Below are positions 1 through 5,697 of a DNA stretch of 32,927 nt, piece after piece; within the stretch, counting starts at the first letter, position 1; each line of letters begins with the position of its first letter. A model generated the notes under the pieces. That model was not told where the DNA came from and did not search any database. It was given only the letters and a program-made list of their open reading frames with translations. Both the position numbers and the translations under genes were made by a program. Origin of the DNA: Curvivirga aplysinae (GTDB lineage Bacteria; Pseudomonadota; Alphaproteobacteria; UBA8366; Aestuariispiraceae); the NCBI RefSeq assembly GCF_009711445.1, contig NZ_SMMC01000185.1:1-32927 (forward strand), written 5' to 3'.

Positions 1-1599
1 CCACAAGCCACAGCACAAAATCAGTCTCAGCCTGCGCAAGCGCCCGCTTCGACAACAACACAAGCGATAAATACACAGACACAGGCGCCAACACCGTCAC
101 AAGCGCAGCAACATCAAATTCAGGTAAAAACATCAGCATCACTTCCACAAGCTGTTTCAAAAGAATTGGCTTCTGGACAAAGTATTAGGGTAGAGGTGCA
201 GCAAGTTCCTAATCAATCAGCCAATCGTCTGACACTGCAAACTACGTCTGGCCCCGTCACAGTAACAACGCAATCAGGAACGCAGATTTTACCTCCACCG
301 AATACACAAGCAAACTTACATGTGTCCTTTCATTCTGCACTAGCAGGAAAAACAGCACAGGGAGATGGGCCCTTATTGCTTAATCTTTCTTGGTCAGGCA
401 CTGCTATCAAAGCGACGACAACAACAACTCAAGGAAGCGCAACAAATGTAACGCTCAACACATTGCAAGGAACACAATTACCTGCCACGACCTTAAGTCA
501 AAACTCGATATCACATTTACTACCTAAAACGCCCACAGGCCCTTTGTCACCCTCTCCTGCGGTACATGCGTCATCCATTCGTGGCGGGCCAGCTGCTGCT
601 ATGACACAGACTAATACCTCGCAAAACATACCAACAATGCCAACGCCACAAGGGTCGCCTATTGCGTCAAATCAGTCCTTAAATGTCCAAATTGCTTCCT
701 TACAGTTGCCTAACCAGACATTACCTGCAGGTTTAACAATCCCGACTTCTGGACCAACAGGCATACCTGCCATTCAAGCAACAGTACTTGCAAGCCAACC
801 CGGTAATACGATCATACAAACATCGGTTGGCCCCATGTCTTTACCAACCCCATCGCCCCTGCCTCCTGGCAGTTTATTAACTCTTCTTCCTTTAGGTGAA
901 CCGATCAGCATCCAGGTTCCTGTACAAACTGCCCTAAATACCTCTGCAGCTATTCAGGAACGATGGGCGATGCTACAACATGCCATGTCCATGTTACAGG
1001 CTGGCAACCCACAGATGGCGCAGCAAGTTATGCAATCCATGCCTCAAGCGAACACGCAAATGGCCACCAGTATACTTTTCTTACTTTCTACCTTGAGAGG
1101 TGGCGCTCTAGAAAACTGGGTCGGGCGAAGTGCCGCATCTCGCATTTCAGGGCCAATGGGCGATCGTCTGATTGATAGCATAAAACAAAATACCAGACAG
1201 ATACGTGACCCCATGGGACAGGAATGGCGGGCATATGGTATGCCCGTGGCCCAAGATTCCAGTTTTGGTGAGTTATGGTTATATTTAAAAGATAAATCAG
1301 ATGAAGAAAAACTAACATCAAATCAAGATGATGAAGCTAAAAGATTTATCATCGAAACTAGTTTTCAAAAAATGGGCCCTTTGCAGCTAGATGGTTTGGC
1401 AACCCAGAAAACAGTAGATTTAATGTTTAGAAGTTTGATCCCGGTCGAAGAAAAAATGCGTGATGATATTCGCGCACTTTTTGGCAACACAATCACGGCA
1501 TTAGGTTTAACAGGAACTATTCGTTTTCACGTTGCAGATCATTTTCCTGTTTCAATTACTGAAGAAAGCGTTACTCTAGGTGGAGAAGTTACCATTTAG
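1..1599 (+). CDS. FliK-like flagellar hook-length control protein, 5'-truncated
   Basis: The reading frame is open from base 1, so the gene begins before the window and only its 3' 1.6 kb is present. The first roughly 270 residues are low complexity, rich in Gln, Thr, Ser, Pro and Ala with few charged residues, as in the disordered ruler part of hook-length proteins. The last part (nt about 1340-1550) reads RFIIETSFQKMGPLQLDG, then a hydrophobic strand, then a helix with LRALFG-like spacing and 'ITALGLTG'. This fits the pattern of the FliK C-terminal Flg_hook domain (strand, Gly-Pro-Leu turn, strand, helix ending in Leu-Gly). In the family this domain contacts the FlhB export switch and stops hook elongation. 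It probably heads an operon with the next two genes (gaps of about 30 and 9 nt). The family call rests on pattern only; another secreted low-complexity protein is possible. Confidence 0.6.
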   Translation, partial: PQATAQNQSQPAQAPASTTTQAINTQTQAPTPSQAQQHQIQVKTSASLPQAVSKELASGQSIRVEVQQVPNQSANRLTLQTTSGPVTVTTQSGTQILPPPNTQANLHVSFHSALAGKTAQGDGPLLLNLSWSGTAIKATTTTTQGSATNVTLNTLQGTQLPATTLSQNSISHLLPKTPTGPLSPSPAVHASSIRGGPAAAMTQTNTSQNIPTMPTPQGSPIASNQSLNVQIASLQLPNQTLPAGLTIPTSGPTGIPAIQATVLASQPGNTIIQTSVGPMSLPTPSPLPPGSLLTLLPLGEPISIQVPVQTALNTSAAIQERWAMLQHAMSMLQAGNPQMAQQVMQSMPQANTQMATSILFLLSTLRGGALENWVGRSAASRISGPMGDRLIDSIKQNTRQIRDPMGQEWRAYGMPVAQDSSFGELWLYLKDKSDEEKLTSNQDDEAKRFIIETSFQKMGPLQLDGLATQKTVDLMFRSLIPVEEKMRDDIRALFGNTITALGLTGTIRFHVADHFPVSITEESVTLGGEVTI

Positions 1600-1629: not shown

Positions 1630-2043
1630 ATGATGGAAAATAATATTGATGAAGCTGAGTTAACGGTAAACCAGAAATCACAATCGGATCGCCGCTTTTC
1701 ACTTGTCACCGTAGAAAATCCAAACCTTTCTATAGATTATCTTGTTTCTCTTGGCTCAAAGCTAACGGATGAAAGCTGCTGCATTCAAATCAGTTATGTT
1801 CCAGATAAGTTGGTTTTAAAACCTGAAGCTTTTGAACAATATCTTCATAGTTTCGATGATCAAGACACGTCGTCTTTAGAAGCACTGGCACTTAACGTTC
1901 TTATTGATCTAAACAACGAAGTTGTACCACGCTGGGTTCAGGTGCGCGCCAAGTCTGAAAGTTCCAATCACCGGGTTCTGGTGGAAGATCGCCAACCAAT
2001 ATGGGAAAATGAAGAACTTTTATCCCGCATCCAAAAATTCTAG
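1630..2043 (+). CDS. QueF-like T-fold protein lacking catalytic residues
   Basis: This 137-residue protein is not a functional preQ0 reductase by its residues, but its core follows QueF closely. 'VSLGSKLTDESCCIQISYVPDK' (split here as V39-C51 and I52-K60) lines up with the QueF stretch TSLCP...QPDF...ISYVPDK. 'YLHSF' (71-75) matches the YLxSF after the NADPH motif, 'SLE' (82-84) matches FHE, and 'PRWVQV' (100-105) matches the late strand. The nucleophilic Cys is Gly42, the QPDF aspartate is gone, the ESKSLK NADPH motif has become KPEAFE, FHE has lost its His, and the PRGGI segment is degenerate. The scaffold survives and the chemistry does not, so a binding, structural or regulatory role is inferred. 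The SD-like AGGGA (1622-1626) sits 3 nt before this ATG and 6 nt before the next one at 1633, which may be the true start. It lies 9 nt before the DUF599 gene. Confidence 0.6.
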   Translation: MMENNIDEAELTVNQKSQSDRRFSLVTVENPNLSIDYLVSLGSKLTDESCCIQISYVPDKLVLKPEAFEQYLHSFDDQDTSSLEALALNVLIDLNNEVVPRWVQVRAKSESSNHRVLVEDRQPIWENEELLSRIQKF

Positions 2044-2052
2044 GAACGCAAC

Positions 2053-2760
2053 ATGGAAAATCCGCTGATTGCGCTTGATTTAACCCTGTTAGATGTTCTG
2101 GCGTTAACTTGGTTCTTTATCTGTTGGATGGGATTTCAGTATTTCGCGGATCATAGTCGCTGGCACAAACGCAGCCTCACCATTCAAATTAATGAATACC
2201 GTCTGGAATGGATGCGTCAGATGCTACAACGCGACGTAAGAATGGTCGATACAACACTTTTAGGCAATTTATTAACCGCTATTGGCTTCTTTGCCTCAAC
2301 AACTATCCTTGTTTTGGGGGGATTATTTGCGTTACTTGCAAATGCAGATATTGCTATGCAAGCCTTAACCAGCTTACCTTTCGCAAAGCAAACCAGCCTC
2401 ACTGTTTGGGAATTCAAAGTATTATTGTTGATGAGTATCTTTGTGCATGCCTTCTTTAAATTTGGATGGGCATTTAGACTTAACAATTATTGCTCAATAT
2501 TAATTGGCGCGGCCCCGCCTCCAGAAACTTTATCACCTGAAAGAGAGCGCTATGCACATAAAACTGCACAGCTCAGTATTAATGCTGGGAAACATTTTAA
2601 TCGGGGATTAAGAACCTATTTCTTCGGTCTAGCCGCAATAGGTTGGTTCTACCACCCGCTGGCTTTGGTTATCGTTTCTACAATTGTTGTGTGCGTATTA
2701 TATCGCCGCGAATTCAGTTCCGCGGCCTTATTCAGCCTAGTGCAAGCTGAAGAAAACTAA
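2053..2760 (+). CDS. DUF599 family membrane protein
   Basis: The protein has 235 residues with four or five hydrophobic segments: near residues 8-30 (LLDVLALTWFFICWMGFQYF), 70-95 (LLGNLLTAIGFFASTTILVLG), 115-140 and 190-215. It fits the DUF599 pattern: an N-terminal helix ending in a Trp/Tyr-rich segment, 'WMRQMLQRDVRMVDTTLLGNL', the central 'FGWAFRLNNYCSILIGAAP' and 'AHKTAQLSINAGKHFNRGLRTYFFGLAAIGWF'. The family is an inner-membrane protein of unknown function. The start is supported by AGGAA six bases upstream of the ATG. It follows the QueF-like gene by 9 nt, so the two are probably co-translated, and it ends 12 nt from the convergent acetyltransferase gene with no obvious terminator between them. 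I am confident of the family and cannot give a biochemical role. Confidence 0.8.
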   Translation: MENPLIALDLTLLDVLALTWFFICWMGFQYFADHSRWHKRSLTIQINEYRLEWMRQMLQRDVRMVDTTLLGNLLTAIGFFASTTILVLGGLFALLANADIAMQALTSLPFAKQTSLTVWEFKVLLLMSIFVHAFFKFGWAFRLNNYCSILIGAAPPPETLSPERERYAHKTAQLSINAGKHFNRGLRTYFFGLAAIGWFYHPLALVIVSTIVVCVLYRREFSSAALFSLVQAEEN

Positions 2761-2772
2761 ATCTCAATAACT

Positions 2773-3645
2773 TTACAAATAAGACTGTGTGGATAATGCG
2801 AAATACTGATCCCAGCCTGCAGTGATATCCCAATCACCACGTATCATAATCGGGGCTGTTTCAACCCAATCCATACCTGCTTTTCTCATTCTCTCAATCA
2901 GGCTTTTATGCATAACAGGGATATCCACTTGATATTGCGGCTCAGCGCGATCGGCAATGGATTGCACCAAAGCCAGAGCCATATCTTCATTTGGCGCAGT
3001 TAAACCACCAATAACAGTGATGCCTTCTTGCTCCGAACCTAACGCATAACCTTGCAACTCATTTTCAGCATCATATAGAAAAGCGCGATATTTGGATTGC
3101 CCCATACGACGCTTTACCATCTTGATGCGGGGCGCCCCAAAACGATCCGCATCAAGGCGTAATAAAGTGCCTAAATCCTTTACAGGTAAAGATTCACGAA
3201 TGGAGCAACCTTCTTCGAGAAGCTCTTCTATTTTTCCGGCATTAAAAGTTTTGGCAAATCCGCGGGTGATCTCATCAACCTTCTTGAAGCCAAACTGTTC
3301 GTATAACCCCTGCCCAACATCAGTTGAAATCAGGCAAAGAGATACGTTCTCCTCTGGTAACAAACCAACGATGCGCTCAATTAATTCTTTGCCCAGTCCC
3401 TGACGTTTATAGTCAGGATGGGTGATCACACAGCCAATGGAACCTTTATCCGCACTGAAAGGCGTAATCGCACCACAGGTGACAATTTCTTCTTTATCAT
3501 TCACATGTCCAATTAGACGTGCGGATGTTAACAATGTCAGCCAGTCTTCGCGGTTTAAGGACCAACCAGTTGTGGCATTTAAGGCAAGTAACGCCCCAAG
3601 GTTTGCATGGCTTAACGGAATTAAGCGAGGGCGTTTTTCTGACAT
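2773..3645 (-). CDS. GNAT N-acetyltransferase with two tandem GNAT-like domains
   Basis: A 290-residue protein. The N-terminal half is a standard GNAT fold: 'GSIGCVITHPDYKRQGLGKELIERIV' (quoted here as GSIGCVITHPDYK then RQGLGKELIERIV) holds the acetyl-CoA pyrophosphate loop RQGLGK, followed by 'LYEQFGFKKV', the usual GNAT ending. The C-terminal half (from about residue 140) repeats a degenerate GNAT with 'RFGAPRIKMVKRRM' and a final strand region, as in proteins with an Acetyltransf_18 type tail. The acceptor substrate cannot be told. It starts 6 nt after the aroC stop, with the SD GGTGAG overlapping the end of aroC, so it is probably translated from the aroC message. The opposite frame shows no competing gene. 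Confidence 0.8.
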   Translation of the reverse strand: MSEKRPRLIPLSHANLGALLALNATTGWSLNREDWLTLLTSARLIGHVNDKEEIVTCGAITPFSADKGSIGCVITHPDYKRQGLGKELIERIVGLLPEENVSLCLISTDVGQGLYEQFGFKKVDEITRGFAKTFNAGKIEELLEEGCSIRESLPVKDLGTLLRLDADRFGAPRIKMVKRRMGQSKYRAFLYDAENELQGYALGSEQEGITVIGGLTAPNEDMALALVQSIADRAEPQYQVDIPVMHKSLIERMRKAGMDWVETAPIMIRGDWDITAGWDQYFALSTQSYL

Positions 3646-3651
3646 CGTTGT

Positions 3652-4740
3652 TTACTCACCGCATTGCGCGCGATGACGCATATAATGATCCAGAATGACA
3701 CAAGCCATCATGGCTTCCCCTACAGGCACAGCACGGATACCAACACATGGATCATGACGACCTTTGGTGAGGATATCTGCATCCTGTCCATCTTTGGTCA
3801 CGGTTTTACGAGGCGTCAGAATAGAACTTGTCGGTTTAACTGCGAAACGAGCAATAATGTCCTGACCAGTTGTTATGCCGCCAAGAATACCGCCAGCTTT
3901 ATTGCTGGTGAATTCAGGTTTACCATCAGCGCCCATACGCATTTCGTCTGCATTTTCTTCGCCTGTCAAAGCTGCAGATTCAAAACCTGCACCAACCTCA
4001 ACACCTTTCACGGCGTTAATGGACATAAAGGCACGCGCGATATCTGTATCTATTTTATCATATACAGGCGCACCAAGACCGACAGGTACTCCAGAAGCCT
4101 GTACTTCAATAACCGCCCCACAGCTGGAACCACTTTTACGGATGTCATTCAGATATGCTTCCCAGTCCTGTGCAGCTTTCACATCTGGGCAGAAGAACGG
4201 GTTTTGACCGACCTGATCCCAATCCCAATTATCACGATTAATTTTATGGGGGCCCATCTGAACCAAGGCAGCACGGATTTGAACGCCACCTTCGATAATA
4301 TGATTCAGAACCTTACGAGCAATACCGCCTGCTGCTACACGCATGGCTGTCTCACGTGCAGAAGAGCGGCCGCCACCACGATAATCACGAATACCGTATT
4401 TTTCCCAATAAGTGTAATCTGCATGCCCCGGACGGAATTTATCCATAATATCGGAATAATCTTTGGAACGCTGATCTGTATTTTCTATCAACAACCCAAT
4501 AGAAGTTCCCGTAGTTTGGCCTTCAAACACACCAGACAGAATTTTAACTTCATCAGGTTCACGACGTTGGGTGGTATGTTTGTTTTGTCCCGGCTTGCGT
4601 TGGTCCAGATAAACCTGCAAATCATCTTCGGTTAATGGTACACATGGTGGTACACCATCAACAACACAACCGATTGCCGGACCATGACTTTCACCAAATG
4701 TGGTGAAGCGGAATAAATGACCAAAACCGTTACCGGACAT
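3652..4740 (-). CDS. aroC: chorismate synthase
   Basis: Chorismate synthase converts 5-enolpyruvylshikimate-3-phosphate to chorismate with reduced FMN, the last shared step to aromatic amino acids and folate. The 362-residue length is normal. Family signatures are clear: '[13 protein letters not shown]' near residues 11-23, '[14 protein letters not shown]' then '[20 protein letters not shown]' in the middle, and 'AVKPTSSI', '[18 protein letters not shown]' near the end. I place the start at ATG 4740, with AAAGGG seven bases upstream, rather than the in-frame TTG at 4746. A hairpin at 4780-4804 separates it from fabI upstream, so it may have its own promoter or receive read-through. The GNAT gene follows 6 nt downstream. 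Confidence 0.96.
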
Positions 4741-4779
4741 ATTCAAACCCTTTATCTAAATCTCAAGGTCTTTAATTAC

Positions 4780-4804
4780 AAAGACCGGCATAATGCCGGC
4801 CTTT
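4780..4804 (-). terminator. rho-independent-like hairpin after fabI
   Basis: The arms AAAGACCGGC (4780-4789) and GCCGGCCTTT (4795-4804) flank a 5-nt ATAAT loop. On the minus-strand RNA the single non-Watson-Crick position is a G-U pair; on the plus strand it would be A-C, so the stem suits the minus transcript. The tract that follows in the minus direction is only weakly U-rich, so termination may be partial and allow read-through into aroC. Confidence 0.5.
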
Positions 4805-4853
4805 GGTTTTAAATCATATGAGCAGCTTTGCAATCGCAAAAGCGTCAAAAGAA

Positions 4854-5697
4854 CTACTTGGAACGTTCTTTAATCTGTTCAAGTAATTCCGCAGATTCTT
4901 CAGCGGCATCAATCGCAACCATACCAACTGTGTGATATCCACAATCAACATGATGAACTTCGCCGGAAACACCTGCACCTAAATCAGATAGCAGATAAAG
5001 GGCTGAGCCTCCTACTTCATCAATGGTTACGTTGCGCTTCAATGGTGCGTTTAACTCGTTCCAACGAAGGATGAAACGGAAATCACCAATACCACTTGCA
5101 GCCAATGTTTTGATTGGGCCCGCAGAAATCGCATTCACACGGACACCCTGACTACCCATATCAACCGCCAAGTAACGAACGGATGCTTCCAATGCAGCTT
5201 TTGCAACACCCATTACATTATAATGAGGCATTACACGTTCAGCACCATAATATGTGAGTGTTACGATAGAACCGCCCTCATTCATCAATGGCGCAGCGCG
5301 ACGCGCCAAGGCAGTTAAAGAATAACATGAAATATCCATAGACATTAAGAAATTGTCACGGGATGTATCTAGATAACTTGCCTTTCAATTCGCTTTTATC
5401 AGCGAATGCAACCGCATGAACCAAGAAATCAATCTTACCCCATTGCTTTTCAAGTTCAGCAAATACGTTATCCATGCTTTCTTCGTCAGTTACATCACAT
5501 GGTAAAATGATAGTAGAGCCTAATGATTCAGCCAATGGGCGTACGCGTTTCTCAAGCGCTTCACCTTGATATGTGAAGGCGATTTCCGCGCCATGCTCTG
5601 CCAATGCCTTAGAAATACCCCAAGCAATAGATTTGTCATTTGCAAGGCCAAGGATAAGACCACGCTTACCTGCCATGAGTTGTGACGGGTTAGTCAT
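4854..5697 (-). pseudogene. fabI: enoyl-[ACP] reductase (NADH) gene interrupted by a one-base frameshift
   Basis: FabI performs the final NADH-dependent reduction in each round of fatty acid elongation. The 5' part (5697 to about 5377) encodes the N-terminal Rossmann segment with 'GLANDKSIAWGI' and 'HAVAFADKSELKGK', then runs into LSRYIP and a stop. Dropping one base at the AA doublet 5375-5376 (TT on the coding strand) restores YLDTSRDNFL and joins directly to MSMDISCYSLTALARRAAP. The restored protein of about 280 residues is full length and keeps the catalytic Tyr-Tyr-Lys set in 'TYYGAERVMPHYNVMGVAKA'. Everything else is well conserved, so this is either a very recent lesion or a sequence error. 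The SD GAGG lies 9 nt before the ATG. Two separate proteins are unlikely, since the frames abut at a conserved motif. Confidence 0.9.

Follow-up and report, generated by a model that had tools for sequence, protein, structure and literature searches.

QueF-family proteins are known as tRNA-modification enzymes. What, then, is the role of a QueF-like gene that stands in a flagellar-looking cluster, and can its product still catalyse the QueF reaction? The question is raised by one gene in the 32,927-nucleotide stretch of Curvivirga aplysinae DNA analysed here (contig NZ_SMMC01000185.1), which we call the window. Its open reading frame occupies exactly positions 1630–2043 of the plus strand, starts with ATG and encodes 137 amino acids; it lies 30 nt 3' of a 477-aa reading frame and 9 nt 5' of a DUF599 gene. 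We use the name QFL for the QueF-like alphaproteobacterial family that includes this protein. The three genes are:

166–1599, plus strand: FliK2, variable in its N-terminal part, with a FliK/PscP-like fold predicted for its C-terminal domain; conserved neighbour of QFL
1630–2043, plus strand: QFL, 137 aa, a T-fold protein of QueF type that lacks the catalytic residues; the main finding
2053–2760, plus strand: DUF599 membrane protein, 9 nt downstream of QFL (PF04654, E 7.5e-63)

Sequence similarity and predicted fold

The preliminary description of this locus took the 1630–2043 product for a pseudoenzyme built on a QueF scaffold. In an HMM search the Pfam QueF profile, PF14489, matches the protein above chance, with 31.9 bits (E 1.6e-7) against a gathering cut-off of 27.3; TIGR03139 gives 30.5 bits (E 2.6e-7), far under its equivalog cut-off of 86.9. 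A PDB search with the single window protein sequence was marginal (best E 0.05), and one with a profile of 19 QFL members matched Bacillus subtilis QueF at E 5.4e-6, QueF-Like at 0.012 and, weakly, GTP cyclohydrolase I at 0.21. No QFL match to the Pfam FolE family was found; the folE of the same genome matches that family at E 8.5e-75.

The family was sampled in two ways. We used the pattern D-x-N-[ND]-[EQ]-x-V-[PA]-R to find the 61 other members of a main set of 62, and because this set came from a motif-based scan, 24 further QFL loci were fetched by profile only, without the motif filter. PF14489 is matched at E 0.001 or better by 31 of the 62. The conservation of the family rules out a chance reading frame or a pseudogene.

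Structure prediction from 62 sequences gave a model with pLDDT 90.7 and pTM 0.84, in which the beta-beta-alpha-alpha-beta-beta elements form a complete T-fold. Compared by VIA-align, this model resembles Bacillus QueF (4f8b; Z 15.0, rmsd 2.8, 116 residues aligned), QueF-Like (5jyx; Z 14.2, rmsd 1.6, 93 aligned) and M. tuberculosis FolE, a GTP cyclohydrolase I (9p8z; Z 14.1, rmsd 2.7, 113 aligned), with dihydroneopterin aldolase at a Z of about 10; Foldseek agrees (best E 6e-7). Z scores within 1 are tied, and by predicted fold QueF, QueF-Like and FolE are about equally near to QFL. Sequence, unlike fold, favours QueF as its nearest relative. Neither a structure unlike the T-fold nor an absence of profile similarity to QueF, the two outcomes named beforehand as speaking against the preliminary description, was found.

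The best sequence-profile match is thus to a unimodular QueF, that of B. subtilis (PDB 4f8b, 4fgc, 5udg), which shares with QFL an anchoring Glu (Glu97, equivalent to Glu84), a similar YxPD turn, and the YL and PR-aromatic positions. QFL differs from it in lacking the Cys55 loop, Asp62, Glu78 with the QueF motif, His96 and the PRGG turn, in its flagellar operon and in the length of its branch in the trees described below. The QueF-Like archaeosine synthase (PDB 5jyx, 5k0p) resembles QFL as a small single T-fold, and, according to PMC5485725, it is likewise related to QueF without carrying out an NADPH-dependent reduction; it acts on tRNA through a thioimide Cys and a general acid/base Asp, and QFL has neither residue. 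FolE has the T-fold in common with QFL, which falls outside its Pfam family.

Residues lost and residues retained

We merged the 62 QFL proteins, 20 alphaproteobacterial QueFs and a B. subtilis fragment into one alignment. The parts of the window gene on which the comparison turns are:

1738–1800, plus strand: beta1-beta2 hairpin and turn, residues 37–57, the site of QueF's CPxTGQPD loop (Cys55, Asp62)
1879–1881, plus strand: codon of Glu84, counterpart of Glu97, which anchors preQ0 in B. subtilis QueF; kept in 62/62 motif-found and 20/24 profile-found members
1906–1935, plus strand: D-x-N-N-E-x-V-x-R-W family signature, residues 93–102, from the end of helix 2 into the start of strand 3
1984–2010, plus strand: conserved C-terminal motif EDRQPIWEN, residues 119–127, seen in the alignments of 62 and of 24

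The motifs C..T.QPDF, ES[KL][SA].K, FHE and PRGG are present in 20/20 of the alphaproteobacterial QueFs and in 0/62 QFLs, and neither the Cys loop nor the QueF motif was found in the 24 members fetched without the motif filter. The losses originally listed for the QPDF Asp, the ESKSLK motif and the PRGG turn are borne out in the 62. The nucleophilic Cys, by contrast, had been read as replaced by Gly, and this has to be corrected, since the whole CPxTGQPD loop is missing: the Cys55 column, C in 20/20 QueFs, is a gap in 60/62 QFLs including the window protein, with A and S in the other two. The Asp62 column, D in 20/20 QueFs, is a gap in 40/62 QFLs, again including the window protein, and D is not among its six commonest letters in the 62. 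At the Glu78 column 11/62 QFLs have E and the window protein has K. In the predicted model the turn between beta1 (residues 39–44) and beta2 (50–57) would be too short for a CPxTGQPD loop. For FHE the loss of the His stands, and a retained residue had been overlooked, namely the Glu of this motif, which is residue 84 of the window protein and E in all 62. Among the 24 profile-found members it is replaced by S, S, P and N in L172, L174, L169 and L179, respectively.

In PMC5372742, any sequence without Cys55, Asp62, the Glu78-bearing QueF motif or Glu97 is classed as non-QueF; Glu97 is described as anchoring preQ0, and its mutation to Gln raised the KM of B. subtilis QueF 280-fold. Three of these four features are missing from QFL, and the Glu97 equivalent is retained. 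Because Cys55, Asp62 and the QueF motif are required features by that account, QFL cannot be a preQ0 reductase, as had been claimed for the window protein.

Might QFL nevertheless work as a preQ0 reductase, or as some other protein of the queuosine pathway, filling in for a queF that its genome lacks? The Pfam name QueF would suggest as much, and the window's genome (98.78% complete) has tgt although a search with PF14489 found no second queF in it, the only other match, below the cut-off, being GTP cyclohydrolase I. In a draw of genomes from the class, however, 14 of the 29 genomes with QFL have a second match of QueF grade, and all nine such matches that we fetched (L119, L123, L129, L130, L131, L132, L133, L134 and L135) are intact QueFs by motif. 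A genuine queF elsewhere was not found in the window's genome and is present alongside QFL in nine others. Since the two coexist in the nine genomes examined, QFL does not replace queF; together with the missing residues this rules it out as a functional QueF, and with a conserved context that is flagellar we consider any such substitution exceedingly improbable.

Conservation within QFL itself has to be read with the sampling in mind. In the other 61 members of the main set the search pattern itself makes the D-x-N-N-E-x-V-x-R-W signature invariant at the positions that it fixes; in the 24 profile-found members D93 is kept in 23 and R101 in 18 (K in 4). The best-kept feature of these 24 is the C-terminal motif, with P123 in 62/62 and 24/24, Q122 in 58/62 and 23/24, and W125 in 61/62 and 23/24 of the two sets. 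Similar ends, of the HRQPGW or YRQPGW type, also occur in some short genuine QueFs outside the class (L201, L205), and we therefore regard the QFL motif as partly ancestral.

We used the usual T-fold topology, combined with the strand order of the model, to place these residues in space. In this predicted arrangement Glu84, where helix 2 begins, would lie at one end of the domain, and D36, D93–E97, R101 and D120–W125 would gather at the other, which suggests an older end for a ligand and a newer one for a partner.

Two alternative readings of QFL bear directly on these residues. In the first, QFL would be a pure adaptor or chaperone: its T-fold would serve just as a scaffold, and FliK2, FlhG or FlhA would be bound by the EDRQPxWxN motif and the end of helix 2, without any small ligand. 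Outside the motif-selected set the C-terminal motif is indeed kept better than Glu84, which speaks for this reading; the adaptor nevertheless leaves unexplained why, of the active-site residues listed, Glu84 and no other is kept in all of the 62, and part of the motif on which it relies is ancestral. We hold a pure adaptor to be somewhat unlikely, and note that it overlaps with the explanation that we prefer, which leaves the ligand open.

In the second, QFL would be an enzyme with a new chemistry on a purine or pterin, acting in flagellated cells without Cys, Asp or NADPH. T-fold enzymes do catalyse very different reactions, QueF-Like being an amidinotransferase (PMC5485725), and the 62 have invariant polar residues at E84, D93, N95, R101 and D120, of which D93, N95 and R101 are invariant by construction of the search. 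On the other side, no catalytic Cys is conserved, just one Cys column in the 62 having more than 6 Cys (it holds 8), and no His is found among their invariant or nearly invariant residues. The conserved upstream neighbours, moreover, are flagellar (downstream, the survey covered DUF599 alone). We consider a new enzyme improbable.

Genomic context and distribution

Neighbouring genes were detected by blastp to the proteins of one locus (L042), where Pfam families had been assigned, and the Azospirillum annotation agrees with the result. FliK2 is directly 5' of QFL in 72 of 79 named loci; the seven others include one with just 0.5 kb of upstream sequence (L097), which cannot be judged. The commonest junction is a 4-nt overlap of the two genes (31/79 loci), a close coupling that adds some weight to the adaptor reading. 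Upstream sequence extends to 6.5 kb or more in 59 loci; of these, 52 have the order flhA-flhF-flhG-fliK2-QFL, and FlhA, FlhF and FlhG were found upstream of QFL in 56, 53 and 54, respectively. The stretches fetched for the 24 profile-found loci show FliK2 in 19 cases and FlhA likewise in 19. The flagellar-looking cluster of the preliminary description is borne out. The two immediate neighbours initially reported fared differently, for the FliK-like gene is conserved and the DUF599 gene is not: the latter was beside QFL in 0/79 named loci and adjoins it only in the window's genome, which rules it out as a partner.

Departures from the common order are of several kinds. QFL directly follows FlhG, with FliK2 undetected, in L171, L175, L176, L177 and L107, and in L112 one gene and about 0.9 kb lie between FliK2 and QFL. 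Two Thalassospira loci (L082, L099) have about 1.06 kb between these genes, unlike the other Thalassospira loci examined. In L061, L069 and L081, QFL is outside the flagellar cluster; these are uncultured genomes of Rhodospirillales type and offer a natural test of which function stays. FlhA was matched in the genomes of all three loci and in that of L097, above the cut-off except in the L069 genome, where the match consists of three pieces below it. In two further QFL-bearing genomes, FlhF-like and FlhG-like sequences share a single open frame and look fused: 650 aa at L113 4147–6099, where Pfam finds both domains, and 615 aa in L171 (ORF 3337–5182 of the reverse strand).

In the window's genome another contig (C150) ends with flhA, the window contig begins just before FliK2, and an FlhF query found no match. 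It is likely that the two contigs join here, and the missing flhF link is probably an assembly gap. Elsewhere in the window, an enoyl-ACP reductase gene is split on the minus strand (4854–5697) into ORFs 5356–5697 and 4854–5345, which lie in different frames and match the first and second part of PF13561, reflecting either a draft frameshift or a broken gene. A cation-efflux ORF of 250 aa (PF01545; 9214–9966, plus strand) stops inside its C-terminal dimerisation domain, at 35 of 78 positions. The two together hint at base errors in the window contig.

The label FliK-like, given to 166–1599 in the preliminary description, has weak to moderate support from predicted fold and none from sequence. 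PF02120 (Flg_hook) had no match in 23 FliK2 members at E up to 1, a sequence search of the PDB gave no match, and profile-profile comparison with canonical FliK returned a probability of 0.4%. The FliK2 model (pLDDT 74) has nothing at 0.001 in Foldseek; in VIA-align the top two for its C-terminal domain are PscP (5cuk; Z 7.2, rmsd 3.0) and FliK (2rrl; Z 6.6, rmsd 7.0). FliK2 may resemble the FliK/PscP switch domains in predicted C-terminal fold and differs from them in having no PF02120 match. We regard its identity as a FliK as unsupported by sequence and weakly to moderately supported by predicted fold; because both top matches belong to a single functional class, despite modest Z scores, the models make a FliK-type role likely. 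A canonical FliK is encoded elsewhere in the same genome, beside flgD on contig C207.

QFL was matched in 24 of 39 relatives' genomes searched, the own genome included, in 12 Azospirillum plasmid records (product 'hypothetical protein' in the two examined), and at 93 places in the named genome collection, 80 of which were kept. The titles of QFL-bearing records are alphaproteobacterial or unspecific, except for one Mesoflavibacter (L035), which is probably mislabelled since its gene order is that of the other QFL loci. In the class draw, counting matches of 45 bits or more that reach past profile position 111, QFL is present in 29/289 genomes. The weaker matches have 43.3 bits or less and end at position 111 or before, except for a 23-aa QFL-like fragment in G045; the 20 examined are all QueF by motif. 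In a draw from the phylum 85/299 genomes matched at 1e-6, and the two matches of QFL grade are both within the class. Of the 83 weaker matches, 16 were examined as possible QFLs outside the class, all of them from other classes, and 16/16 carry the CPxTGQPD loop that marks a genuine QueF.

In a tree of 74 proteins, for which the bootstrap is not fully settled, QFL and QueF are split by one branch with support 100/100 and a length of 5.35 changes per column. When 16 short QueFs from outside the class are added, QFL takes its place among these, away from the alphaproteobacterial QueFs, and the branch measures 6.07; because this branch is so long, the placement is weak, and a long-branch error is possible.

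Does QFL follow the flagellum across genomes? FlhA, counted with TIGR01398 at E 0.001 or better, is present in 27 of the 29 QFL genomes and in 166/289 of all genomes in the class draw; in the two QFL genomes without a match (G159 and G097) FliK2 adjoins QFL, and in G097 a flagellar-type ATPase and a FliJ gene lie next to the pair. TIGR03499, tried as an FlhF marker, proved useless, matching 287/289 genomes and all 14 controls, probably because of related GTPases. Among the 39 relatives, QFL and canonical FliK occur together in 22, QFL alone in 2 (G031 and G036, both fragmented drafts), FliK alone in 3 and neither in 12. The three FliK-only relatives (G014, G019, G035) form one genus of the same order, with no QFL match. 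The co-occurrence p-values are 8e-6 and 2e-5, ignoring phylogeny.

FliK2 is found in 101/289 genomes of the class, 24 of them QFL genomes, and being far more widespread than QFL it merits a separate study. Of the 77 FliK2 genomes without a full QFL we examined 20 loci and found QFL after FliK2 in none; G045 is among them, its fragment sitting on a different contig. In about half of these loci, judged by eye, the next gene is fliJ-like and runs in the opposite direction, and in L189, the only one tested, Pfam confirmed FliJ. These counts rule out FliK2 as an obligate partner, and QFL, present in 29/289, is dispensable to a module that is itself widespread, having been either gained in some of the genomes or lost often.

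An optional element might owe its flagellar link to hitch-hiking, QFL being a housekeeping protein at the end of a conserved operon. The frequency of FliK2 without QFL can be cited for this, as can the three loci in which QFL is outside the cluster. The genomes of those three nevertheless have FlhA, QFL and canonical FliK are jointly absent from 12 of the 39 relatives, and the two cases of QFL without FliK are fragmented drafts. We think it quite unlikely that the link is incidental.

A proposed accessory role in flagellar assembly

The explanation that we prefer, with a rough probability of 0.55, is that QFL is a catalytically dead T-fold protein of the QueF branch that serves as an accessory binding protein of the flhA-flhF-flhG-fliK2 module. 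That its role is in flagellar assembly and is non-enzymatic seems to us probable; that a ligand is part of this role has a little less than an even chance. Purine or pterin sensing, proposed when the locus was first described, is made plausible by the anchor Glu kept in the alignments. Because Glu84 is lost in 4 of the 24 profile-found members, any ligand site would, on the same alignments, not be universal.

The mechanism might be as follows. By likeness to other T-fold proteins, QFL may assemble into a ring with pockets between its subunits; in B. subtilis, QueF forms a decamer from two pentamers (PMC5372742). A purine- or pterin-type ligand could still sit on Glu84, and binding would tune either FlhF and FlhG, and so the placement and number of flagella, or FlhA and FliK2, and so export and substrate switching. 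In a more specific proposal, which is speculative and rather unlikely, a T-fold ring taken from queuosine metabolism would have come to respond to nucleotides within the machinery that assembles the flagellum: QFL would hold a guanine-type ligand (GTP, GDP, a cyclic dinucleotide or a pterin) on Glu84 between subunits and so set when or where FlhF, FlhG, FlhA and FliK2 build the flagellum.

A pseudoenzyme of a known fold is a known kind of protein; the QFL family, its pattern of losses and its flagellar placement look new. We found no description of a QFL-type protein, that is, a non-catalytic member of the QueF family or a flagellar T-fold, among the papers listed in searches of the open-access literature, a scope outside which preprints and most subscription papers fall. 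The family carries a warning for annotation, in that the window protein passes the Pfam cut-off for QueF although it is without the residues of the QueF reaction. QFL is open to knock-out in Azospirillum and Thalassospira, laboratory organisms that are not pathogenic. If our reading is true, this widespread dead branch of QueF, linked to flagellar genes, would offer a clear example of an enzyme fold re-used for cell assembly.
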